From NCBI GenBank assembly GCA_002245135.1, contig NGBS01000292.1, positions 1 to 64,000 on the forward strand: DNA of 64,000 nt. The letters are read 5' to 3'. The translations under genes and the position numbers were made by a program. The notes beneath the pieces are model-generated. The model was given only the letters and a program-made list of their open reading frames with translations. It was not told the DNA's origin and searched no databases. The stretch's first letter is position 1. Each line of letters opens with the position of its first letter. This stretch comes from Proteromonas lacertae (lineage: Eukaryota; Sar; Bigyra; Opalinata; Proteromonadidae). Shown here piece after piece: positions 1,543 through 43,393 of this stretch.

Positions 1543-3744
1543 CGAACAAATAATCTAGAAAATGATTATGAAACTAATGAAAATTCTGTTGAAGATAAAA
1601 CTCCGTTTCCAAAGAGGAAGTATTTGTTCCATAAAGAGTCTCCATTTGTTCCATCTAATTTACCAGTTCCAATTCTTAGTGCAAATACAAGTACTGATAG
1701 CACCGATATTAGTATTATAGGACTGATGGAAAAAGAAGAATTAAATGATAAAAGAGATTCAATAATTATGGAAGGTAATGCTAATGATGAAAATGTAAAT
1801 GAAGATTTTGCATCAGTAGAAGAAACAAAAGAAATTGTGAAAGAAGAAAAATCAAAATCAAAAAAGAAAGGTGTAAGCTTAAAGAAGAAGCCAAGTGCAA
1901 CTCCAAAAAAGAAAGCAGAAATGTCAAAGAAGAAAACTGAAACACCTAAAAAGAAAGGTAAAAAATCTAAAGCTGCCAAATCAGATGAACCTAAAATAAT
2001 AACTAAACCAGAAGAAGAAGAAGAAGAAGAAACAGTAGAAAAACCATTACCAGAAGAACAAACAGAAATTACACAAGAACAAACAGAAATTACACAAGAA
2101 CAAACAGCAGAAGCTGAAGCTGAAGAAGTAAAAGAAGAAAAATCAAAATCAAAAAAGAAAGGTGTAAGCTTAAAGAAGAAGCCAAGTGCAACTCCGAAAA
2201 AGAAAGCAGAAATGTCAAAGAAGAAAACTGAAACACCTAAAAAGAAAGGTAAAAAATCTAAAGCTGCCAAATCAGATGAACCTAAAATAATAACTAAACC
2301 AGAAGAAGAAGAAGAAGAAGAAGAAACAGTAGAAAAACCATTACCAGAAGAACAAACAGAAATTACACAAGAACAAACAGAAATTACACAAGAACAAACA
2401 GCAGAAGCTGAAGCTGAAGAAGTAAAAGAAGAAAAATCAAAATCAAAAAAGAAAGGTGTAAGCTTAAAGAAGAAGCCAAGTGCAACTCCAAAAAAGAAAG
2501 CAGAAATGTCAAAGAAGAAAACTGAAACACCTAAAAAGAAAGGTAAAAAATCTAAAGCTGCCAAATCAGATGAACCTAAAATAATAACTAAACCAGAAGA
2601 AGAAGAAGAAGAAGAAACAGTAGAAAAACCATTACCAGAAGAACAAACAGAAATTACACAAGAACAAACAGAAATTACACAAGAACAAACAGCAGAAGCT
2701 GAAGCTGAAGAAGTAAAAGAAGTAAAAGAAGAAAAATCAAAATCAAAAAAGAAAGGTGTAAGCTTAAAGAAGAAGCCAAGTGCAACTCCGAAAAAGAAAG
2801 CAGAAATGTCAAAGAAGAAAACTGAAACACCTAAAAAGAAAGGTAAAAAATCTAAAGCTGCCAAATCAGATGAACCTAAAATAATAACTAAACTAGAAGA
2901 AGAAGAAGAAGAAGAAACAGTAGAAAAACCATTACCAGAAGAACAAACAGAAATTACACAAGAACAAACAGAAATTACACAAGAACAAACAGCAGAAGCT
3001 GAAGCTGAAGCTGAAGAAGTAAAAGAAGTAAAAGAAGAAAAATCAAAATCAAAAAAGAAAGGTGTAAGCTTAAAGAAGAAGCCAAGTGCAACTCCAAAAA
3101 AGAAAGCAGAAATGTCAAAGAAGAAAACTGAAACACCTAAAAAGAAAGGTAAAAAATCTAAAGCTGCCAAATCAGATGAACCTAAAATAATAACTAAACC
3201 AGAAGAAGAAGAAGAAGAAGAAACAGTAGAAAAACCATTACCAGAAGAACAAACAGAAATTACACAAGAACAAACAGAAATTACACAAGAACAAACAGCA
3301 GAAGCTGAAGCTGAAGCTGAAGAAGTAAAAGAAGTAAAAGAAGAAAAATCAAAATCAAAAAAGAAAGGTGTAAGCTTAAAGAAGAAGCCAAGTGCAACTC
3401 CAAAAAAGAAAGCAGAAATGTCAAAGAAGAAAACTGAAACACCTAAAAAGAAAGGTAAAAAATCTAAAGCTGCCAAATCAGATGAACCTAAAATAATAAC
3501 TAAACTAGAAGAAGAAGAAGAAGAAACAGAAGAACAAACAGAAATTACACAAGAACAAACAGAAATTACACAAGAACAAACAGCAGAAGCTGAAGCTGAA
3601 GAAGTAAAAGAAGTAAAAGAAGAAAAATCAAAATCAAAAAAGAAAGGTGTAAGCTTAAAGAAGAAGCCAAGTGCAACTCCAAAAAAGAAAGCAGAAATGT
3701 CAAAGAAGAAAACTGAAACTCCTAAAAAGAAAGGTAAAAAGTAA
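1543..3744 (+). CDS. Lys/Glu-rich tandem-repeat protein (5' end unresolved)
   Basis: The frame is open from just after a TGA at 1540-1542 to a TAA at 3742-3744; the first in-frame ATG is at 1726. After about 100 residues of ordinary acidic sequence the protein becomes seven blocks of a basic module (KKGVSLKKKPSATPKKK, then a KKKTETPKKKGKK stretch) separated by acidic spacers (EEEEEE, TEITQEQ repeats). No globular domain is visible. Such alternating basic and acidic low-complexity proteins are often nuclear or nucleolar, but this is only an analogy. The upstream NPF-repeat region is probably part of the same gene, with the frame lost by one base near 1545. The long opposite-strand ORF here is a shadow. 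Confidence 0.6.
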   Translation, partial: RTNNLENDYETNENSVEDKTPFPKRKYLFHKESPFVPSNLPVPILSANTSTDSTDISIIGLMEKEELNDKRDSIIMEGNANDENVNEDFASVEETKEIVKEEKSKSKKKGVSLKKKPSATPKKKAEMSKKKTETPKKKGKKSKAAKSDEPKIITKPEEEEEEETVEKPLPEEQTEITQEQTEITQEQTAEAEAEEVKEEKSKSKKKGVSLKKKPSATPKKKAEMSKKKTETPKKKGKKSKAAKSDEPKIITKPEEEEEEEETVEKPLPEEQTEITQEQTEITQEQTAEAEAEEVKEEKSKSKKKGVSLKKKPSATPKKKAEMSKKKTETPKKKGKKSKAAKSDEPKIITKPEEEEEEETVEKPLPEEQTEITQEQTEITQEQTAEAEAEEVKEVKEEKSKSKKKGVSLKKKPSATPKKKAEMSKKKTETPKKKGKKSKAAKSDEPKIITKLEEEEEEETVEKPLPEEQTEITQEQTEITQEQTAEAEAEAEEVKEVKEEKSKSKKKGVSLKKKPSATPKKKAEMSKKKTETPKKKGKKSKAAKSDEPKIITKPEEEEEEETVEKPLPEEQTEITQEQTEITQEQTAEAEAEAEEVKEVKEEKSKSKKKGVSLKKKPSATPKKKAEMSKKKTETPKKKGKKSKAAKSDEPKIITKLEEEEEETEEQTEITQEQTEITQEQTAEAEAEEVKEVKEEKSKSKKKGVSLKKKPSATPKKKAEMSKKKTETPKKKGKK
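1840..3741 (+). repeat. Seven-copy in-frame coding minisatellite, unit 279-306 bp
   Basis: The landmark GTGTAAGCTTAAAG occurs at 1871, 2162, 2456, 2756, 3062, 3368 and 3647, giving spacings of 291, 294, 300, 306, 306 and 279 bp, all multiples of three. Copies are nearly identical at the DNA level. Length differences lie in short GAA, GCTGAA and GTAAAAGAA runs, as expected from slippage or unequal exchange. Confidence 0.95.
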
Positions 3745-14079: not shown

Positions 14080-14226
14080 GTTTAAACTAAATATGCTTAT
14101 TATTATTGTTATTATTTGTTATTAACAAATACATACTCAAATATTAATGAAATATAATAAAATATGAATATTATTTAGTATATATCTCTTTTTGCTGTTA
14201 TATATTTCTTGTTTCTTCTTCACAAT

Positions 14227-14350
14227 AGAAGGATTTGTTGAGGTATTATTGAATAATTGTATATATCCTCCTGATGATGCTCCACCAAGAAGATCAAGTG
14301 CTCAAAAGTCTAAGCGAAGATTATCTCTAAGTCCTCCAGTATCAAGATAG
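14227..14350 (+). pseudogene. Duplicated 3' end of the TSNAXIP1-like EF-hand gene
   Basis: This is a copy of the last 124 bp of the gene at 19010-23038. It encodes the same C-terminal tail, with the SSAQKSKRRLSLSPPVSR ending and its stop at 14348-14350, but is cut off at the arm boundary. No start or upstream exon accompanies it, so it is a dead fragment carried along by the duplication. It shows that the right-hand copy is the original for this part of the arm. Confidence 0.9.
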
Positions 14351-14415
14351 ATTAAATTAAAATACATTTTATGTTAAAATTGTTTTATTTTCATTTCATT
14401 AAAAGTGAACTTTTC

Positions 14416-14631
14416 ATACGGGTCAAAGCCTTCAACTTTTCATTCAATAAAGAAGAAAAGCGACGTTCCTCGACGGTAGAATGAAATAGAAGTTACCTTC
14501 TTACTTTCTATCTTACTCCCGTTTCAAGGCTGGACCTTTCCCGAATCCTCAAAGCTTTTGGATATATCTTGTTAAATAATAACAAGATGACTGACTTTAC
14601 TATAGAAATGATCCTGTTCAAGTACAGTCTT
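14416..14631 (-). ncRNA. U3 small nucleolar RNA, copy in left arm
   Basis: Reverse complement of the U3 gene at 18729-18944. The 5' end (AAGACTGTACTT) and box A (GGATCATTTCTATAGT at 14614-14599) match the conserved U3 start. U3 guides the early cleavages of pre-18S rRNA in the nucleolus. The shared promoter element is also duplicated (14673-14692), so this copy could be active. The 3' end is approximate. Confidence 0.85.
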
Positions 14632-14672
14632 AAAATTTTATTTTATTTTTCATTTTTATATATATTTTCAAA

Positions 14673-14692
14673 ATATGAATTATTTTATGGCA
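14673..14692 (-). promoter_or_regulatory. PSE-like element of the left-arm U3 gene
   Basis: TGCCATAAAATAATTCATAT on the minus strand, 61 bp upstream of the U3 start. It is identical to the right-arm copy at 18668-18687 and differs in one base from the element before U4. Confidence 0.75.
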
Positions 14693-14867
14693 CAATAATT
14701 CAAAATTCGAAATAAAACTCATATCAACATATTTAAACTCTAATATATATAATATTCCATTAGTGTATATGCATTCTATTGAAATGGAGGGTATGTTGAG
14801 TAAAAGAGTTAGTAATATAGAAAATTGTCACTGTTTATATATTAGCAAGAATATTAGAAAATAAAGT

Positions 14868-15960
14868 ATGATTAATTATTTGATATTGAAGAATTCTTTT
14901 GATAATTCTTTCTTTTCATCTTGTGTAAGTCCTTCTATTTTTATTCTTCCAATTGACGAGAATGTTTCTAGAAATGATTGTAATTCTGATTTATCAATAT
15001 TCTCTTTCACAGTAATTGATAATTTTTTAAAAAATAGTGAATACTTCTTTATTAGCTTCCATTAATTTTAATCCACTTTCATTTAATTCATTTCATGATA
15101 GATTTATTTTTTCTAATGGATAATAATCTTTTAATCTTTCTATTAATAATCTCAATCCTTTTTCACTCATTCCAATATCTATTTCAAATAATAAACATAT
15201 AATATTCATTAAATACTTAAATGATTTAATGTAGAATCATTAACAAGTATATATTTTGATATATAATATCTATTCCTTGATCTCCAATATCATTGTTATG
15301 AATTGAAATATATTTTGAGTCTTTTGGTAAAACATCTATTAACTCTTTTAATCCTTTATTACATAATCAATCTGCTTTATAAATGAAATATGACAATCAT
15401 TGATATTCAAATCTATTTCATAATAAATATAGTATTTATACTTGAAAAATCATAATTCTTATTATCATTTATTTTCTTTTTTATACAGTAATCCAAATAA
15501 TATTCTAATTCTTCATTTGTCCATGATGAATTTTTCATTTCTATATATGGATATTCTTCTTTTTCTAAGGATTTTTGACAAATTGATTTTAATCCTTTCA
15601 TTCTAATATTATTTCCTTTGAAATTTATTGAGATTAAATTTAACTTATTTGATAATAATATAACACTTTCATCATCTATTGAGATATTACTCAAATTTAC
15701 ATAATGAAAACCAATTATTCCAACATCTAAATTGTCTAGTAATAACCTAAATCAAACATTACCAATTGGATTGTCTATTAAATCAAACATCAATATTAAA
15801 TACTATCATATTATATTCCAGAACTTTTATTTATTTATATTCTTTGTATAATTTGATTAATAGTATTACTAAGATTGATTCATAAGATTTATAATTGTAA
15901 ATATCTCAAATTTTGTGTAATAATTGCTTAATTGAAAGTTCTAGCAAATCACTTAATTTA
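14868..15960 (-). pseudogene. Leucine-rich-repeat (RNI-type) pseudogene, left copy
   Basis: Reading from about 15960 down to 14868, short frames encode LRR-type segments: DNPIGN, then SISIDDESVILLSNKLNLISINFKGNNIRMKGLKSI split over frames, then KYISIHNNDIGDQGI and LEKINLS-stop-NELNESGLKL. Frames are joined by likely short introns but broken by shifts and by a TGA where Trp is expected. No intact product can be read. The part beyond 15629 is unique to this copy, so the left copy is the fuller one. Confidence 0.7.
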
Positions 15961-16304
15961 AAAATATTAACTACTACATACACTCATATATACAATTCAT
16001 GTAATATAGTTGGAGTAATGAATAAGACGGTTATAAAATATTTTGCTCAATGTTATAGCTTCAGCCATCACTTACACTTATATCAGCATTACATATTATT
16101 GCTTGTTTATTGGTTTACTAAATAACACATACAACAAAAAATACTTCAATATCTATATAATTCAAAATCATACTAACTATTAAACCTATTACATCTTATA
16201 CTCATGTTAGTAGAAATGCATTAATTTGGAGTATTATACTGTTTCTTTACATTTTTACCCTCAAATCACACCAAACTTAATTCAGATTAATTTTGAATCG
16301 AATT
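15961..16304. other. Left part of the spacer between inverted arms, no gene seen
   Basis: AT-rich sequence upstream of the membrane protein gene. Short ORFs here have no recognisable features and unsuitable composition. It presumably holds the promoter of the gene at 16305. Confidence 0.5.
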
Positions 16305-17460
16305 ATGTTTTGGAACGAAGTCCTATCATCTACTGAATCAGGACTAGCCGCAGGCGCGTTCGCAATTATAGCTACTGTGCTAGTAGAAAAATTGGGGGGT
16401 ATTATAGGTGGTACAATTTCAGCAATACCTTTCACTTTTATTCCTGGTTCATACGCTCTTATCACCTCAGCCAAATCTTCTGCTGATTGGAAGGCTTCAA
16501 TATCTTCAGTGGCGTTTGCTTGTTTTGGTGATCTTGTTTTCGTCGAGATGTGGAAGGTTTTACCTCCTAAAATCCCAAAACATTGGAATAAATATTTGCG
16601 AGTGATATTGATAGGTTTTCTGTCATCTTTAGTTTGGACAGCTTCATGCTTTGGTTGTACTATTATTTTTTTTCTAATTAGAAGTAAAGAAGATTGGATA
16701 GTCCCTTGTGGTTTATTGGCATGGATTATTCATTTTATATTAAGTTTGTCTTTATGTTGGAATGCTTTACCCTCAAAGAAAGCTAAAAAACACATTTCAA
16801 TATGTACATATTTCTGTCGTGGTGTATTAGCATTCTGTACAATATGTTTTGGAGCAATGATTGCGAAAATGGGTAATATGGTAGTAGCAAGTATATATAT
16901 ACATATAATTTTAATATATATTAAATATAGCTGTTGTGACAGAATTTCCTGCAATTTTCTTAACTACTTTAGCTTCAATGTTTATATCTCACGGTGATGA
17001 TGTTGGTCTTGGAGCTACAGGTCCACTGATGTTAGGTGGAGATGCATGGGCAGCATTTGCAGCAATATTATCCACATTAGAAACGTATAGTCCATTACCT
17101 ACCTTTGTGAATATTGGATTAACTCTATTATTAACAATATTCTGCGTTTCTGTTCCAAGTGTATTTTATTTACAATGGAGAGAGAAGAAATCTGGTTTTA
17201 TAACAGTTCGTTCAATAGAATTACCAGTTGAATCTCCAGAGAATATTGATATTCCATCTCCTATTATATCTCCATCATCTCCTGCTACTATAATTAAAAC
17301 AAGAGAAACTGAAGGTACTTCTTGTGCTGTAATGATTAGTCCTCCACCTCCACCTGATACTGAAGAAATACAAGGTGAAGATGGATTTAATGAAGAGAAT
17401 CGAATAAAAACAAAACATTATACAGAAACATCCTCTTTATTACATAATTCAAATGAGTAA
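16305..17460 (+). CDS. Multi-pass membrane protein of unknown function
   Basis: Two exons (16305-16890 and 16931-17460) with a 40-nt intron give 371 residues. About eight hydrophobic segments are visible, starting with a Gly-rich helix near residue 15-50 (GLAAGAFAIIATVLVEKLGG), with conserved-looking loops such as TEFPAIFLTT and GATGPLMLGGDAW. The C-terminal 90 residues are soluble and acidic with a Pro run (SPPPPPDTEE). I do not recognise a named family; a transporter-like role is only a guess. It is the sole intact gene between the arms of the inverted duplication, so recombination between the arms would flip it. The ATG at 16305 is preferred over the upstream TTG. Confidence 0.8.
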
Positions 17461-17730
17461 TGAAATGTATTTCATTATCACACATATATAATATATATTA
17501 ATTATAAAAATCGTGATAAATTTTGTTTTTATATAATTTTGTTGTTATATCATATTGATTTAATTTTTTTATATGGGATGATTATTGTTATCTATGAAAT
17601 AAATGTTTATATCATTAAACAAAGAATTTATTTTTCAACTCTTTATTAAGAATATTTCAATAACATATGGTAATTAAATAACACAACTTCAATATTGCAA
17701 ACATATCCTTACATAAACTTAATTGATCAT

Positions 17731-18492
17731 AATAAATTTCAAAGGAAATAATATTAGAATGAAAGGATTAAAATCAATTTGTCAAAAATCCTTAGAAAAA
17801 GAAGAATATCCATATATAGAAATGAAAAATTCATCATGGACAAATGAAGAATTAGAATATTATTTGGATTACTGTATAAAAAAGAAAATAAATGATAATA
17901 AGAATTATGATTTTTCAAGTATAAATACTATATTTATTATGAAATAGATTTGAATATCAATGATTGTCATATTTCATTTATAAAGCAGATTGATTATGTA
18001 ATAAAGGATTAAAAGAGTTAATAGATGTTTTACCAAAAGACTCAAAATATATTTCAATTCATAACAATGATATTGGAGATCAAGGAATAGATATTATATA
18101 TCAAAATATATACTTGTTAATGATTCTACATTAAATCATTTAAGTATTTAATGAATATTATATGTTTATTATTTGAAATAGATATTGGAATGAGTGAAAA
18201 AGGATTGAGATTATTAATAGAAAGATTAAAAGATTATTATCCATTAGAAAAAATAAATCTATCATGAAATGAATTAAATGAAAGTGGATTAAAATTAATG
18301 GAAGCTAATAAAGAAGTATTCACTATTTTTTAAAAAATTATCAATTACTGTGAAAGAGAATATTGATAAATCAGAATTACAATCATTTCTAGAAACATTC
18401 TCGTCAATTGGAAGAATAAAAATAGAAGGACTTACACAAGATGAAAAGAAAGAATTATCAAAAGAATTCTTCAATATCAAATAATTAATCAT
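17731..18492 (+). pseudogene. Leucine-rich-repeat pseudogene, right copy (truncated)
   Basis: Inverted copy of the 14868-15629 part of the left LRR pseudogene, with the same frame breaks and the same internal stops. It lacks the N-terminal segments, which end at the arm junction. The identical damage in both copies shows that decay came before the duplication. Confidence 0.7.
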
Positions 18493-18667
18493 ACTTTATT
18501 TTCTAATATTCTTGCTAATATATAAACAGTGACAATTTTCTATATTACTAACTCTTTTACTCAACATACCCTCCATTTCAATAGAATGCATATACACTAA
18601 TGGAATATTATATATATTAGAGTTTAAATATGTTGATATGAGTTTTATTTCGAATTTTGAATTATTG

Positions 18668-18687
18668 TGCCATAAAATAATTCATAT
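18668..18687 (+). promoter_or_regulatory. PSE-like element of the U3 snoRNA gene
   Basis: TGCCATAAAATAATTCATAT begins exactly 61 bp upstream of the U3 start. A second block, AAAATGAAAAATAAAAT, lies at 18704-18720. Both blocks recur at the same distance before U4. By analogy with snRNA genes elsewhere, this is a proximal sequence element. Confidence 0.75.
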
Positions 18688-18728
18688 TTTGAAAATATAT
18701 ATAAAAATGAAAAATAAAATAAAATTTT

Positions 18729-18944
18729 AAGACTGTACTTGAACAGGATCATTTCTATAGTAAAGTCAGTCATCTTGTTATTATTTAACAAGATATATCC
18801 AAAAGCTTTGAGGATTCGGGAAAGGTCCAGCCTTGAAACGGGAGTAAGATAGAAAGTAAGAAGGTAACTTCTATTTCATTCTACCGTCGAGGAACGTCGC
18901 TTTTCTTCTTTATTGAATGAAAAGTTGAAGGCTTTGACCCGTAT
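18729..18944 (+). ncRNA. U3 small nucleolar RNA
   Basis: The sequence begins AAGACTGTACTT and carries the conserved U3 5' domain: box A with GGATCATTTCTATAGT at 18746-18761. The rest is clearly more GC-rich than its surroundings, with box C-like (TGAATGA, near 18914) and box D-like (TTGACC, near 18934) segments towards the end. A length of about 216 nt suits U3. U3 base-pairs with pre-rRNA to direct 18S processing. There is no T-run at the end, so polymerase II transcription is more likely than polymerase III. An identical copy lies at 14416-14631. The 3' end is approximate. Confidence 0.9.
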
Positions 18945-19009
18945 GAAAAGTTCACTTTTAATGAAATGAAAATAAAACAATTTTAACATAAAATGTATTT
19001 TAATTTAAT

Positions 19010-22000
19010 CTATCTTGATACTGGAGGACTTAGAGATAATCTTCGCTTAGACTTTTGAGCACTTGATCTTCTTGGTGGAGCATCATCAGGAGGATATATA
19101 CAATTATTCAATAATACCTCAACAAATCCTTCTTTTGTTATTCCTTCTTCATCAGAAATATTCTTATCCATACTATGAATTTGTTGGAACAATTCATTCA
19201 CTTTCTTTTCTGGTAAATCAGAAGTACCTGTACAATGAGCCATAACTTTCTTAAATTCGTCTAATTCCATTAATCCACTATTATCTTCATCATACAAATC
19301 AAACAGTTTAAAGTAAGCTTCTCTCCAAGAAAGCATATCATCTAAATAAATATCACTAAAACCATTCAAAAATGTATCAATATTCACTACTTTATCTCCC
19401 ATTCCTTTAGCTCCTACACTCATTGCATCTATTTTAATATCATGAATGAAACGAACTAACTTCTTTTGTCCAGATACTGTAATAAAATATGTTTTGTGAA
19501 TAACATCATCTACTCCTTCATCTTGAACTGAATCTGGTTGACTTTGAGTATCATCTGGTTGTTCAGCTAACAGATCAGACAATACGGAATTATCAAACGC
19601 AAATATCTCTTCGACAGCATTTAATAAGGAAGCACAACTCATAAATCCTCCTCCTTGTATATCCATTCTTATTCTTATCTGGTTCAATCTTTTGATTGAT
19701 AATGACAATAAACCCAACATCACATCACATAATTGAGGTGTATATCTATCACCACGGTAAATACCTAACAATGTAGCAAATACTCTCACTCTAATTGAAT
19801 GTTCCACTGTATCATTCACATTGTGACATAACCCATAAATATATTCATCTGATATTTTCTTAAGTCCATATTTTTGTGTGAAATAATCTCTCACATGCAT
19901 TGGTAATGCTGTTCTTTCATGGCCTTCTCGATCATTGGTTTGATCTGCAATTGCTTTACTTTGATATATATCACATATTACTGATTCTAATTGCAATAGT
20001 GATAATTTCTTTCCTTTCTTATGTTTCTTTTTCATGTATTGACTCCATGGTAGTGGTTTTGAGTAGAATAACGACATTGTAGTGGCACTTGATCGTTTAT
20101 CTTCTTTCTTCGGCACATATTCTTCTGGTATACTTGATATACTTCCTATTTCTTTCACATATGACATTGTAGTTGGATCACTTGCTATTTGGTCAGTTTG
20201 AGTACTAACGGAATGCTTTTCAATATATCTAATATATATATATATATATATATAACAGAAAATATATAATACGGTGGAGAAGATGATCTGTTGTTGAAAT
20301 TAGGAGCATTTGACTTAATCTCGGGAGATCCCTTCAATCTCTCTGTCCTTGGTGGTGTAGAATATCCATTCAATGGAGAAGGTTTACGACTTTCATTTGG
20401 AGAATCACCAAATGATTTTGGACTTTTACTTTTTTTCGCACCTTTTGGGGTTTGCAAATAACTAACCGTTTCATTAAATCGAACTTTATTTCCTTTGCCT
20501 TTTTTCTTGCCTTTTCTCATTTCATCATCATCTTCATTATCATAATTCTCTTCATCTTCATCATCTTCATCTTCTTCATCACTGCCATTCATCTTCCTAC
20601 CATCATTATACTCATCAATCTTATTACTTCTAGTACTACCTCTAGAATCAGTTCGTTTACTACCTCTACTACTTCCTCTACTAACTGGTCGACTATTTGA
20701 ACCGCTTCCACCACCATTACCTCCTTTACCTTTTTTCTTGTGTTTTACTCTGTTTATTTCATCATTATCTGAACCATTATCTTCATTATTGTCACTATTA
20801 TCATTTTCACTTTCACTGTCAGATGAATCAGAATTTTTGGTTGAATTCTTTCTCTTCTTGATTCTTTTGAACTTTGAAGATACTGAAGGAGATTGTGTTC
20901 TTTCTGGAGTAACACTGTTACTATTATTGTTAAGATTATTATTATTATTATTATTGTCATTTTGTATTTTATCTAAACCAAATTTCTTCATCAATTTTCT
21001 ATTAATAATATAAGCAATAATAATATATACTCTTTACTTAGTTTCAAATGATCCAATAACCAATCTTCCGACACATTTGGCAATAATTTCTCCAACATTG
21101 ATTTTACATTATTCGCATTCATACCTCCAATAATATCATCACTACACTTAGCCACATCCACAACAATTGGACCTTTCTCCTGTGGATTTGCCTTTAAGAA
21201 TGGTGAAGCTAATTCATTGAATTGATGATTATCTAAATGTGCTCTTAATAATTCCAATAAATAAGTGAATAATTCCCTTGCATCTAATATACCAATACCT
21301 TTATAAATTCTTCTATTAAAAGAGGATAAATCACCAATCAAATCTTTTTGATGAGTTTGACTCTTATCATCAGTTAGAAGTATTTTTAAGATTGATTCAC
21401 CAAAGGAAGGTGGTGTTTCTTTATATAAATACATTATTATATCTTCTAATGTTCTTTGGTTAAAACCATGTAATATTTCCTTTGTATACTATTTATAATT
21501 AGAATTTATAGTTTATAATTTATTTATACACATGATAAATCATATATTTTTGTATCATCTAATGCTAATTCAGTAGGTGGTCTTGCTAATAACCAATCTA
21601 ATACTTCAATTTCTAATTGCTCACCACACTATAATTATACATAAATAAATAAATAAATAATATACAAGATCAATTAATTTAAAAGTAACAGTTTTTGCAT
21701 CTTCAAATGACATTCCATCCAATAAGAATCCAGCACAATTCTTAATATCACCAATACAGTCATCTTTAATAAATTTATTCTCCAATAACATCCTTAAAGC
21801 TTGTAATCTGTCTCTATCATTCAAATTCATTACAAATTCATTCACTGTCATTTCCTTATGTATTACTGATGGTAATTCAGCCTTTTGTTCTGGAGATTGT
21901 GCTCTAGATGCTGGTAATGATAATCTTGCAGTACTTAATCTTCTAGAAGATTCTTGAGATGGTGATGGAATTCTACTAGATAATAGTAATTGTGGTAATG

Positions 22001-23038
22001 GCTTAGTATAATCAATAGTTGGTGATTCTGTTAACTCGTCTAAGAATCGAGCTTGCATTGATACAAAATCATTTTCTTCTGCATCTTGATCTACTAAAGG
22101 TTCTAATTTGAATTTCTGGTTTGTATGCTCCATCATATCATAGTATAAATTCGCTAAATGTTTAGTAACTCCAGATGCTGTTACTTCATTCGGCATTGGT
22201 TGTTGATCAAAGAGTTTATTGACTGCTTCTAATTCACTGTTTAGTTCATTTATTGCTTTGTCTTTTTCTCCTATTATATTCTTTAATTCTTTGATTCTTT
22301 CTTGTAATTGTAATTCTCTTCCTGTTGTACCAATATCTAATTCATGTTTAGTGTAAGTATATGTATCATATAAACTAGACATTCTTTGATTTGTTTCTCC
22401 CCATATTCTTACTAACATACGTCTATATATATATATATATAATATATTTATTATACGATAGTTCTATTGATGTTAAAGAAACTTGATGACAAACTTCATT
22501 AAATGCGATTGTATAAACATCAGACTTTTCTGCAAAATCTTTTGTTACATCTTTTGTTTTTCTAAATGACTTTAATTTTTCATTTAACCAATTCTCCACT
22601 TTAGTAGTACTTTCTAAAGTATTTGGCATCTGATTTTTACCTAAAAATATACTATTCCTCCACAATGATTCTAATGCCTGAGCAGATTTACCTTGATGTA
22701 TTTGTAGTAACCTCCAATTCCACTCTCTATCTGCTAATTCTTCTTTATCTACATGTTTCTTTATTGGTGAAGTTTGTGCAGGTGGTCGAAGAGTAGGAGG
22801 TGGATTACATGGTAAATTCGATCTTTTTTGACTTGGCATTATCGGATAACACGTGATATCATCAATCATTGGAAATGAAGGATATTGTTTAACAACTGGA
22901 GTAATTGGAGATTTAACTATTAATTAAAAAGAATAGAATACATCTTGCAGGCTTAATTGGTGTCAAAGCCGTGGTAGATTTAGATTTATTTCTATAAAGT
23001 TGTAACATATGTTGATACTTTACAGTTGACTTATTCAT
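19010..23038 (-). CDS. TSNAXIP1-like EF-hand protein, probable axonemal component
   Basis: Seven exons (23038-22942, 22916-22457, 22422-21666, 21628-21530, 21488-21031, 20998-20273, 20228-19010) total 3816 nt, an exact 1271-residue frame; introns are 25-44 nt. The N-terminal third resembles the TSNAXIP1 N-terminal domain (NEVCHQVSLTSIELSRMLV and following helix). A coiled coil follows (LQERIKELKNIIGEKDKAIN). The middle is a long Ser/Arg/acidic low-complexity region. The C-terminus has a helical domain and an EF-hand (FDLYDEDNSGLMELDEFKKV, canonical D-x-D-x-S loop). Related proteins occur in sperm and cilia. The 3' end lies in the right arm of the inverted duplication. Exact function is unknown. 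Confidence 0.8.
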
Positions 23039-23404
23039 ATATGTATATACTCTCTATTTCCTTCAATATGACAAAAACGAATAATAATGAAACGAATAAA
23101 TTTATTAAAATGTAATTAAGAAGGGAATAGACGTTGTTAAGTAAAAAAAACTGTTTAAAATGTTTATTAAAGAGTATCTGGACTTGTAAAAGCTTTAAAA
23201 AAAGACAATTAAGTGATGTATGCTTTATTCTAAAAGTATATATATTTCGTTGGTATAAAAGTTGCTTTATATGTTTATAGTGTTTTCATTCTTATATAAT
23301 GTAATTCTTAGTTTTTTGTTGTTTCAAAAATTAATCCGTTTAATAGAATTTAGTGTTTTTATATTTCTTTCTACACATCTAGAATTCAATCAATTTTACT
23401 ACAT
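23039..23404. other. Divergent intergenic region, no gene seen
   Basis: AT-rich sequence between two divergent genes. It contains TATA-like runs (near 23240 and 23255) but no element I can assign. Confidence 0.5.
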
Positions 23405-23824
23405 ATGAGTTTAGAATATGATAGCATGTCACATGTTAGAAGGTTGTATGATTATGAAGACTTTGGAACAATTGGAACATTGATGATGATTGTTTTTATT
23501 GTTTTGTGGATATCAACTTGTATAATTATTCTCAGAAGATGTTTAATCCGGCAAAGAATTATAAGAGAAATAGCACAGAATAACCCAAACGGCACAATTG
23601 CGCTTGTAGGTGATGGTCGTGTAATAACTCTTATTCCTGTTGATAATAATGGTGGAGTAGTACAAGGTGTTCCATGTCAATATCCTGTTAACAATCAAAA
23701 TCCTTCAAACTATTATTCTCCAAATCAACAACAAGGTGCATATGAAGAAGAACCAACGTATCTCAATCCTACTATTGCTGAAATACCAGAAAAACAAAGT
23801 GATATAGTAAATATTAATCCATAA
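23405..23824 (+). CDS. Small single-pass membrane protein
   Basis: A single-exon ORF of 139 residues starting at ATG 23405. There is no cleavable signal peptide; one hydrophobic segment at about residues 26-47 (MMIVFIVLWISTCIIIL) is followed by a basic stop-transfer stretch (RRCLIRQR), suggesting a short extracytoplasmic N-terminus and a cytoplasmic tail. The tail is Asn/Gln/Pro-rich with an acidic EEEPTYLNP motif, a possible sorting signal. No family is recognised. Codon composition resembles that of neighbouring genes. Confidence 0.65.
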   Translation: MSLEYDSMSHVRRLYDYEDFGTIGTLMMIVFIVLWISTCIIILRRCLIRQRIIREIAQNNPNGTIALVGDGRVITLIPVDNNGGVVQGVPCQYPVNNQNPSNYYSPNQQQGAYEEEPTYLNPTIAEIPEKQSDIVNINP

Positions 23825-23913
23825 ATGTGTATCAGTGTGTTAATAAGTGTATAGTGATTTTTCTTTCATTGTTTTTTGATTAAAAAAATATTAAAATAAA
23901 AACATAAAACACT

Positions 23914-24675
23914 CTAATACCTATTTTCAATAACAATTATAGGATTACTTCTTCTACTGCTAGTTGGAGCTATCCTATTACTTGTACTAGGTATTCTATT
24001 CTCTACTACAACTATTGGATCACTCCTTCTACTGCTGTTTGGATGAATTTCATTATTGTTATTTATATCTCTGTAATTATTGGTATTTTCCATTACAGTG
24101 AGTGGAGCTGTACTGCTACTGCTTGTACTACTCATTTCATTAACATTTATATGCCTTCTATCATCTTCATCATCCCATCTCTTTCTTAACACCTCATTTC
24201 CACTTTTATCGTATAAATCATCTTCTATTCTTTGAATCTATAAATCATAATTCATATATTTTATTATATATACAACCATTCCTGGTTTATATTGATGGAT
24301 TCTTGACATTACAATAGAAATTGATAAATTACGAATTGTTGTTATACCATTAGAATGCCTAATTTCACTTTCTTTGACTACTCTTCCAACCATTTTCTAT
24401 TATCATTAAAATATAAATATATATATAATATTATACTTTGCCTCTTTCTTTGAATAATATCAAATCACCAACAGATACATCTTTATAATCATCAATTGTA
24501 AATACATTCAAATTACTAACATAACTCTCATATTCATATAAAGTCTGAATTAATTTACTTTCACTCCAATTACTACCATTACAATTCACTCTAAATTCAT
24601 AACTATTGTTTGGTTTTAACTCTGATACACAATACATTGAAGTCTGTCCTTGATAACAAGTTCTCCAATTACATC

Positions 24676-42981: not shown

Positions 42982-43111
42982 ATTCTTGCGCTTGGGGCAT
43001 TATAGTAGTAAATGAGGCCCAGCCGATACACTATTATTGCTAGTTGAAAACTTAATCCAATCCCCGTGTAGTCTGTTTAACAGACTACCAATTTCTGAAA
43101 GCTTTCGCTTA
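42982..43111 (+). ncRNA. U4 spliceosomal snRNA
   Basis: The RNA follows the U4 pattern closely. A 5' region with CTTGCGC and GGGGCATTATAGTAG and then AATGAGG corresponds to the U6-pairing stem II and the 5' stem-loop. GCTAGTTGAAAACTT at about 43049-43063 is the U4/U6 stem I and central-domain signature. A 3' hairpin (TAGTCTG/CAGACTA, 43067-43087) is followed by an Sm site (AATTTCTGA, 43090-43098) and a terminal mini-hairpin (AAGC-TTTC-GCTT). Its GC content is far above the surroundings. U4 escorts U6 into the tri-snRNP, which fits the intron-rich genes here. There is no T-run at the end, so transcription is probably by polymerase II. Confidence 0.95.
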
Positions 43112-43393
43112 AATTAATGAAAAGAAAAAATACATTTATAAAATGATATATTGTGATTGTGCTTTTGATTAGTAATGTAGTTATAATACACAAAACTACA
43201 TGTTTTTATTATTCTCTGATCAAAATGTAAAGATTGACTGAATGTAAGTAGTTTATACCATAGTATCATTCTTTTCCCCACAGAAATGCATAATTTATCT
43301 ATTTTGATATGAAATCATTTGTCATTTCCATTTGAATATAATAAGCTCGAAAGGAAGTTTGACTGAAATTTATATCTTTTTGTTTTTATTCGT

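Follow-up and report, generated by a model that had tools for sequence, protein, structure and literature searches.

A 1.4-kb inverted duplication carrying identical U3 snoRNA genes in Proteromonas lacertae, and close inverted pairs of U1, U2 and U5 genes in the same genome

The inverted repeat and its U3 genes

The DNA analysed here, referred to as the window, is the first 64 kb of the 664-kb contig C1119 of Proteromonas lacertae; genome searches covered the 50.2-Mb assembly, made of 1,181 contigs. The window features an inverted repeat, the arms of which flank a spacer and host each a U3 small nucleolar RNA (snoRNA) gene (Table 1). By direct string comparison, the arms are exact reverse complements over all their length (1,403/1,403 bp). 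Identity of this extent is far above chance, and corresponds to the two inverted, near-completely identical arms by which palindrome-type repeats are recognized. A repeat search of the window gave wider limits, 14222-15637 and 17723-19138, as it runs a few bases past mismatches. No second inverted repeat of 100 bp or more was found in the 64-kb window, starting from 20-base exact seeds. Full-length matches to the arm are limited to C1119 and a second contig, C142, among the best 40 of 442 candidates scored in the genome search.

The U3 genes of the two arms are full-length and point outward. The alignment of the right copy spans the entire Rfam model, and the conserved 5' domain with box A/A', GAACAGGAUCAUUUCUAUAGUAAA, aligns without breaks to the RF01848 consensus. 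At least four U3 matches were detected genome-wide, the two window copies and two on C142; the best 83 candidates were scored in this search, and counts are lower bounds. Judging from the assembly, the only U3 genes found in the genome sit in mirror-image copies, the window pair and those on C142. The U3 cargo of both arms is absent from the preliminary description of this DNA, which had been made from the sequence of the window.

Each U3 gene is preceded by an upstream element of the type found at small nuclear RNA (snRNA) genes. The same element is located 58-60 bp before U1, U2, U3, U4, U5 and U12, with one base different in U4, while U6 features by eye only a diverged version. A common element at a fixed distance from six RNA classes is what is expected of an snRNA-type promoter, and it is taken here to be similar to the proximal sequence element (PSE). 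The exact pattern CCATAAAAKAATTCAT has 15 matches in the genome, and the reversed control pattern has none. Thirteen of the 15 correspond to U1, U2, U3, U4 and U5 copies, one to U12 and one to position C396:190752. The U12 gene (C424:32744, L056), found via the element, scores 56.9 bits against a cut-off of 53, and P. lacertae probably has a minor spliceosome, as a U12 gene is present. The C396 copy (L055) had no Rfam match up to E 1; it may mark an unknown small RNA or be a chance match. When one mismatch is allowed, 49 matches are found, versus 3 for the reversed pattern. Many of the 34 inexact matches have one variant word in common and look like an unrelated repeat, and no additional inverted pair within 10 kb was seen among the one-mismatch matches. 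A stretch containing AATGAA, spotted by eye, is located just 3' of U1, U2, U3, U4 and U5. Each arm seems to hold a complete, predicted U3 transcription unit, and both copies are presumably transcribed.

Table 1. Coordinates of the inverted repeat, of its genes and of other features of the window
Feature	Position	Strand	Remarks
Left arm of inverted repeat	14227..15629		1,403 bp, exact
Right arm of inverted repeat	17731..19133		Exact reverse complement of left arm
Spacer, presumably flipped between haplotypes	15630..17730		On C142, opposite end joined to left flank and arm
U3 snoRNA gene, left copy	14408..14631	-	Rfam RF01848, 78.7 bits (gathering score 55)
U3 snoRNA gene, right copy	18729..18952	+	RF01848, 78.7 bits; model positions 1-209 aligned
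snRNA-type upstream element of left U3, CCATAAAATAATTCAT	14675..14690	-	15 exact genome matches of pattern, 0 reversed
snRNA-type upstream element of right U3	18670..18685	+	59 bp before RNA 5' end
AATGAA-containing stretch downstream of left U3	14387..14400	-	Mirror position of right copy
AATGAA-containing stretch downstream of right U3, possible 3' box	18960..18973	+	Read by eye
EF-hand-like gene, 3' end in left arm, truncated at outer arm edge	14227..14350	+	Mirror of 19010-19133
EF-hand-like gene, open reading frame, probably last exon, intact on right side	19010..20167	-	Pfam EF-hand matches below gathering score
LRR-family gene fragment through left inner boundary into spacer	14847..15787	-	Nucleotide homology, 6/6 relatives; limits approximate
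LRR-family fragment in right arm, ending at inner arm edge	17731..18513	+	Nucleotide homology, same relatives
Membrane-protein gene in spacer, two exons	16305..17460	+	Splice sites approximate; 85% paralogue on C1082
U4 snRNA gene	42982..43113	+	Only U4 match in genome search; element CCATAAAAGAATTCAT 59 bp upstream

Genes cut by the arm boundaries

The outer part of each arm corresponds to the last 124 bp of an EF-hand-like gene, the open frame of which continues beyond the right arm. The inner part is homologous to an LRR gene family. The homology crosses the left inner boundary up to 15779-15787 in all the six genome relatives compared, and stops at 17720-17744, at the inner edge of the right arm, in the same six; two of these, L007 and L008, gave identical figures. 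The name LRR depends on one relative, L005 (Pfam LRR_6, 32.4 bits versus a cut-off of 23.4), and none of the short open reading frames (ORFs) of the window matched any LRR model. The family has at least 36 further scored matches besides the four arms of C1119 and C142, the best 40 of 442 candidates having been scored. Seven of these further matches are located about 4.8-6.6 kb into their contigs; no telomere-like repeat was seen by eye in the first 600 bp of two such contigs, C40 and C608. A lysyl-tRNA synthetase encoded next to one LRR-family relative, on C1089, has its best named match of plausibly native origin in Blastocystis (73% over 93%), a hint as to relationships; an Ilex entry with a higher score covered 60% of the query and was not relied upon.

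The spacer hosts a plausible two-exon gene encoding a membrane protein with no Pfam match at E 0.001. A paralogue 85% identical to this gene is found at C1082:49452-50572 (L017), with no inverted repeat in the surrounding 4.1 kb. A transposon with terminal inverted repeats was considered and discarded: a mobile element should feature a transposase in the spacer and be repeated elsewhere, and what is found is a spacer gene devoid of Pfam matches, having a single such paralogue, and a whole arm present elsewhere, among the candidates scored, on C142 only.

The preliminary description had reported an indel-free 1,403-bp inverted duplication with arms alike base for base wherever compared, one membrane-protein gene between them, an EF-hand gene intact past the right arm only and an LRR pseudogene continuing past the left arm only. 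The observation holds, and the equality of the arms has now been computed exactly.

A second contig and the orientation of the spacer

The 16,994-bp contig C142 consists, in order, of the left flank, an arm, the spacer joined by its right end, an arm and the left flank again, inverted. The first copy of the flank is a variant, and differs from the window at 5 single-nucleotide polymorphisms (SNPs), three insertions/deletions (indels) of 12, 16 and 2 bp, the first near 14137, and 11 single-base indels; this version was labelled haplotype B, that of the window haplotype A. The adjoining arm carries 3 private SNPs relative to the window arm, at 14367, 14833 and 15279, and the spacer one single-base indel. 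The second arm equals the window arm except for one base in a run, and the second flank equals the window flank except for five single-base indels. C142 contains no right flank, and for the right flank of the window (19300-24000) no second contig was found in the assembly. Relative to the left flank, the spacer of C142, a contig devoid of right flank, is oriented opposite to that of the window. The window arms have 0 differences between each other and 3 to the variant left arm of C142, the right arm of haplotype B being absent from the assembly data.

The spacer has probably flipped between haplotypes, because C142 repeats the left flank/arm junction with SNPs of its own and joins that arm to the opposite end of the spacer. 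The suggestion, made earlier, that the spacer can invert agrees with this junction. C142 would represent a true flipped haplotype, and haplotypes as such are suggested by C142 and by two other contigs, C542 and C597, described below. In the simplest reading, haplotype B has the other spacer orientation, and the assembler crossed to haplotype A somewhere in the about 2.8 kb between the last B-specific SNP of the arm and its mirror site. A wrong join in the 350 bp separating the last B-specific SNP from the inner arm edge is less likely. Alternatively, C142 could be a real palindromic molecule, born when inverted arms of two homologues crossed over, and not a patchwork of two normal haplotypes. 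The order variant flank, variant arm, inverted spacer, window-type arm, window-type flank is the expected product of such a crossover. As a dicentric or acentric chromosome, however, the product is expected to be rare; the same path could come from an assembler faced with two coexisting spacer orientations; and C542 and C597 look like ordinary haplotigs. A palindromic molecule is judged very improbable.

Flipping the spacer back places the LRR remainder, the arm and the EF-hand-like gene in one line on the right side. This side is the probable source, and the left arm a truncated inverted copy of it. A single inverted duplication followed by one flip would suffice to explain the locus, because, once the spacer is turned back, the right arm runs uninterrupted into the LRR remainder at one end and into the EF-hand-like gene at the other. 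The pattern could also result from a longer duplication trimmed by two deletions, a route that requires more events and leaves C142 unexplained. The joining of two separate sources, or of a composite block, which had been proposed, beside fold-back copying, to account for genes continuing on one side only, is not needed if the spacer has flipped.

The preliminary description also regarded a chimeric assembly as a real alternative. The left arm would in this case derive from fold-back reads or mis-joining, and a single U3 locus would be real. The perfect identity of the arms could be so explained, C142 itself has the flank-arm-spacer-arm-flank shape of a mis-assembled inverted repeat, and many differences among contigs are single-base indels in runs, probably read errors. 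Against this, the left flank/arm junction exists in two versions, distinguished by 5 SNPs and by 12- and 16-bp indels in the flank and by 3 SNPs in the arm, and such a variant copy also disfavours the view of the palindrome as a read artefact. The other boundaries are supported by the LRR homology running through the left inner junction in 6/6 relatives, by the EF-hand-like ORF running through the right outer junction and by the right inner junction being found again in C142. Three other loci of the same design, described next, feature arm differences of their own. A chimera is consequently a most unlikely explanation of the repeat.

Inverted pairs of U1, U2 and U5 genes

U1, U2 and U5 are also found as close inverted pairs, detected by family searches in which repeats played no part. 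The arms are 97.6-99.9% identical. U1 genes are located at C1140:531022(+) and 536773(-), within arms of 2,433 bp that differ by 3 mismatches, and a further copy lies on C542. U2 genes are found at C188:36221(+), 42913(-) and 78122(-), the first two in inverted arms that are 97.6% identical over 4,020 alignment columns. A serine hydroxymethyltransferase gene and kinase-LRR genes are duplicated along with U2 in this inverted repeat (C188:34600-44727, L037). The U5 genes, at C604:451154(-) and 451876(+), sit in arms that are 1,339 bp long and differ by 4 mismatches. U4 is single, with no inverted repeat in the surrounding 3.1 kb. U6 has one locus, likewise devoid of inverted repeats in 3.1 kb; a small contig (C597), probably a haplotig, carries a 99.6% copy at its end. 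U12 and the C396 element are single by element search; 1.3 kb around each was inspected, and the U12 family was not used for a genome search. In total, four of the eight classes (U1, U2, U3, U5, out of these and U4, U6, U12 and C396) are organized as close inverted pairs.

The frequency of such structures was estimated in a control of about 119 kb, which combined a 60-kb stretch of C1140 with the remainder of the window. Close inverted pairs with arms of 800 bp or more at 95% identity were not found there. One control pair satisfies the arm requirements (C1140:226607-227947 and 252926-254272, 98.4%), but its members are 25 kb apart. The region C1140:219596-254272 hosts four inverted pairs, three of about 1.3 kb and one of 0.3 kb, with identities of about 90-98% and members separated by 22-33 kb. 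Taking the 95% upper bound of the control density and a mean arm of 2.3 kb, the chance of finding at least four of eight classes paired is 0.009, and that of at least three of seven, omitting U3 as the starting point, is 0.04.

Marks of gene conversion

The differences between arms are not scattered at these loci. All four differences of the U5 arms lie within 19 bp of an arm end, an arrangement having a probability of about 6e-7 if they were randomly placed. At U2, none of the 103 differing columns falls in the about 2.5 kb that include the serine hydroxymethyltransferase and U2 genes, and all 103 are found in the inner 1.5 kb. This inner part is a mosaic of the two arms and a third copy: in one 250-bp bin the left arm is nearer to the third copy (8 differences versus 29 for the right arm), in two other bins the right arm is (4 and 5 versus 25 and 33), and an ambiguous bin lies in between. 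At U1, in the stretch of arm covered by C542, this contig has only three substitutions relative to the right arm of C1140; they fall at the three sites that separate the C1140 arms, where C542 agrees with the left arm throughout (3/3). It also has 6 single-base indels in the same stretch. C542 and C597 are 99.5-99.6% copies of the U1 right side and of the U6 locus, respectively. As far as alignments can tell, the distribution of arm differences at U1, U2 and U5 is that left by arm-to-arm gene conversion, and conversion, for which the U3 arms taken alone give weaker evidence, would act at U3 as well.

The U3 repeat could instead be a recent neutral inverted duplication, in which U3 is a passenger and identity reflects youth. 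Kilobase-scale inverted duplicates of other sequences do occur in the genome, as the 98.4% pair of C1140 with members 25 kb apart. The U3 arms lack an edge divergence demanding conversion, and the excess of arm over flank differences between C142 and the window (3/1403 versus 5/8376) is not significant (Fisher p=0.09). Yet, if the left part of C142 is the other haplotype, the duplication is older than the haplotype split, and nevertheless the window arms are identical to each other and differ at three sites from the other arm. Moreover, U1, U2 and U5 are paired alike and bear marks of conversion. A neutral, young duplication is therefore regarded as rather unlikely.

It is also conceivable that diverged inverted paralogues of the kinase-LRR family promoted fold-back copying (break-induced replication) of their neighbours, and that some small-RNA genes were included by adjacency. 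One kinase-LRR family forms the inner U2 arms and a fragment of the same family the inner U3 arms; at U2 the arms diverge in this inner part, their outer part being identical; and a distant kinase gene (27% identity, with an LRR-like tail by eye) is found in the U1 arms. On the other hand, six family proteins used as queries found no member in the U5, U4 and U6 loci. The 60-kb control contains one full family member and weaker matches, so that such neighbours are common. The inner U2 mosaic of three copies requires conversion anyway, and the U3 inner part is identical throughout. Fold-back copying is an unlikely, though not far-fetched, account of the arrangement; it may explain the origin of some pairs rather than compete with conversion as to their upkeep.

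Proposed history of the locus

The evidence argues, with fairly high probability, for a genuine inverted segmental duplication, in which two full-length identical U3 snoRNA genes point outward from the spacer and the arms are kept alike by conversion. A block with one end inside the last exon of the EF-hand-like gene and the other in an LRR-family gene, U3 lying in between, would have been copied a single time, as an inverted duplicate. In the haplotype of the window the spacer would later have been flipped by recombination of the two arms, and arm-to-arm gene conversion would keep the arms, and hence both U3 genes, identical. Within one chromatid, recombination between inverted copies can only flip the spacer or convert one arm to the other; unlike direct repeats, inverted copies cannot be deleted by it.

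A few points weigh against this interpretation. Left flank at both ends of C142 is impossible on a normal chromosome, and at least one join of this contig must be an assembly switch or a rare recombinant. C542 starts inside the U1 arm, and left-arm reads joined to the right flank could possibly have given its arm bases. The perfect identity of the U3 arms, taken alone, could reflect a young duplication. At about 119 kb, the control for close inverted repeats is of limited size. Finally, U4, U6 and U12 were seen without pairing, and pairing is no rule for all small RNAs.

A more general proposal is put forward tentatively, and may well not hold: every multi-copy small-RNA gene provided with the upstream element (U1, U2, U3, U5) would be kept as a close inverted pair homogenised by conversion. 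Inverted pairing would replace tandem arrays as the general means of securing two identical, loss-proof copies of the core RNAs of splicing and rRNA processing, the price being the flipping of the gene in between. Dosage selection would presumably retain the inverted pairs.

Two other observations concern the start of the contig. The first 1.5 kb of the window are repetitive, acidic coding-like sequence that looks error-rich, and a direct repetition (95-97%) is found at 1840-3740.

Comparison with known systems

How a few copies of an essential structural RNA gene stay identical is a question mostly treated with reference to tandem arrays. The four inverted-pair loci, with conversion marks even between presumed haplotypes, would allow concerted evolution to be studied in a small and testable system that belongs neither to sex chromosomes nor to organelles. 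Inverted pairing may hold two identical copies of an essential RNA gene without the risk of losing one. An inverted repeat can also leave seemingly 'impossible' flank patterns by flipping of its spacer. Among the papers found on small-RNA genes and inverted repeats or duplications, gene conversion or concerted evolution, no title or abstract opening describes the arrangement, subscription journals being thinly covered.

The human U3 cluster at 17p11.2 reportedly has a 'complex inverted repeat structure', to go by the title of Gao, Frey and Matera 1997. U3 genes would there be hosted in inverted repeats, as in P. lacertae; what differs here is that one pair of 1.4-kb arms is found, in a 50-Mb genome, and that U1, U2 and U5 follow the same plan.

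Human Y palindromes have far longer arms, on a chromosome that does not recombine, while the P. lacertae arms are short and carry small-RNA genes. Palindromes such as P6 resemble the present repeats in having near-identical inverted arms homogenised by conversion and in undergoing rare inversions (PMC3723533). Long inverted repeats of C. elegans, in the portion of the article available, host identical divergent or convergent gene pairs and are argued to be actively maintained (PMC1803023). Kilobase arms, short spacers and paired identical genes are features in common with P. lacertae; the C. elegans pairs in that portion are protein-coding, the term 'snRNA' being absent from the main text of that article, whereas those described here are small-RNA pairs. 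Among protists, multi-copy U3 genes have been described also in Euglena gracilis, where they are linked to U5 (PMC2784804). In Euglena U3 faces a convergent U5, whereas in P. lacertae the partner of each paired small RNA is its own inverted copy. What is new is the common design shared by four small-RNA genes of one genome.

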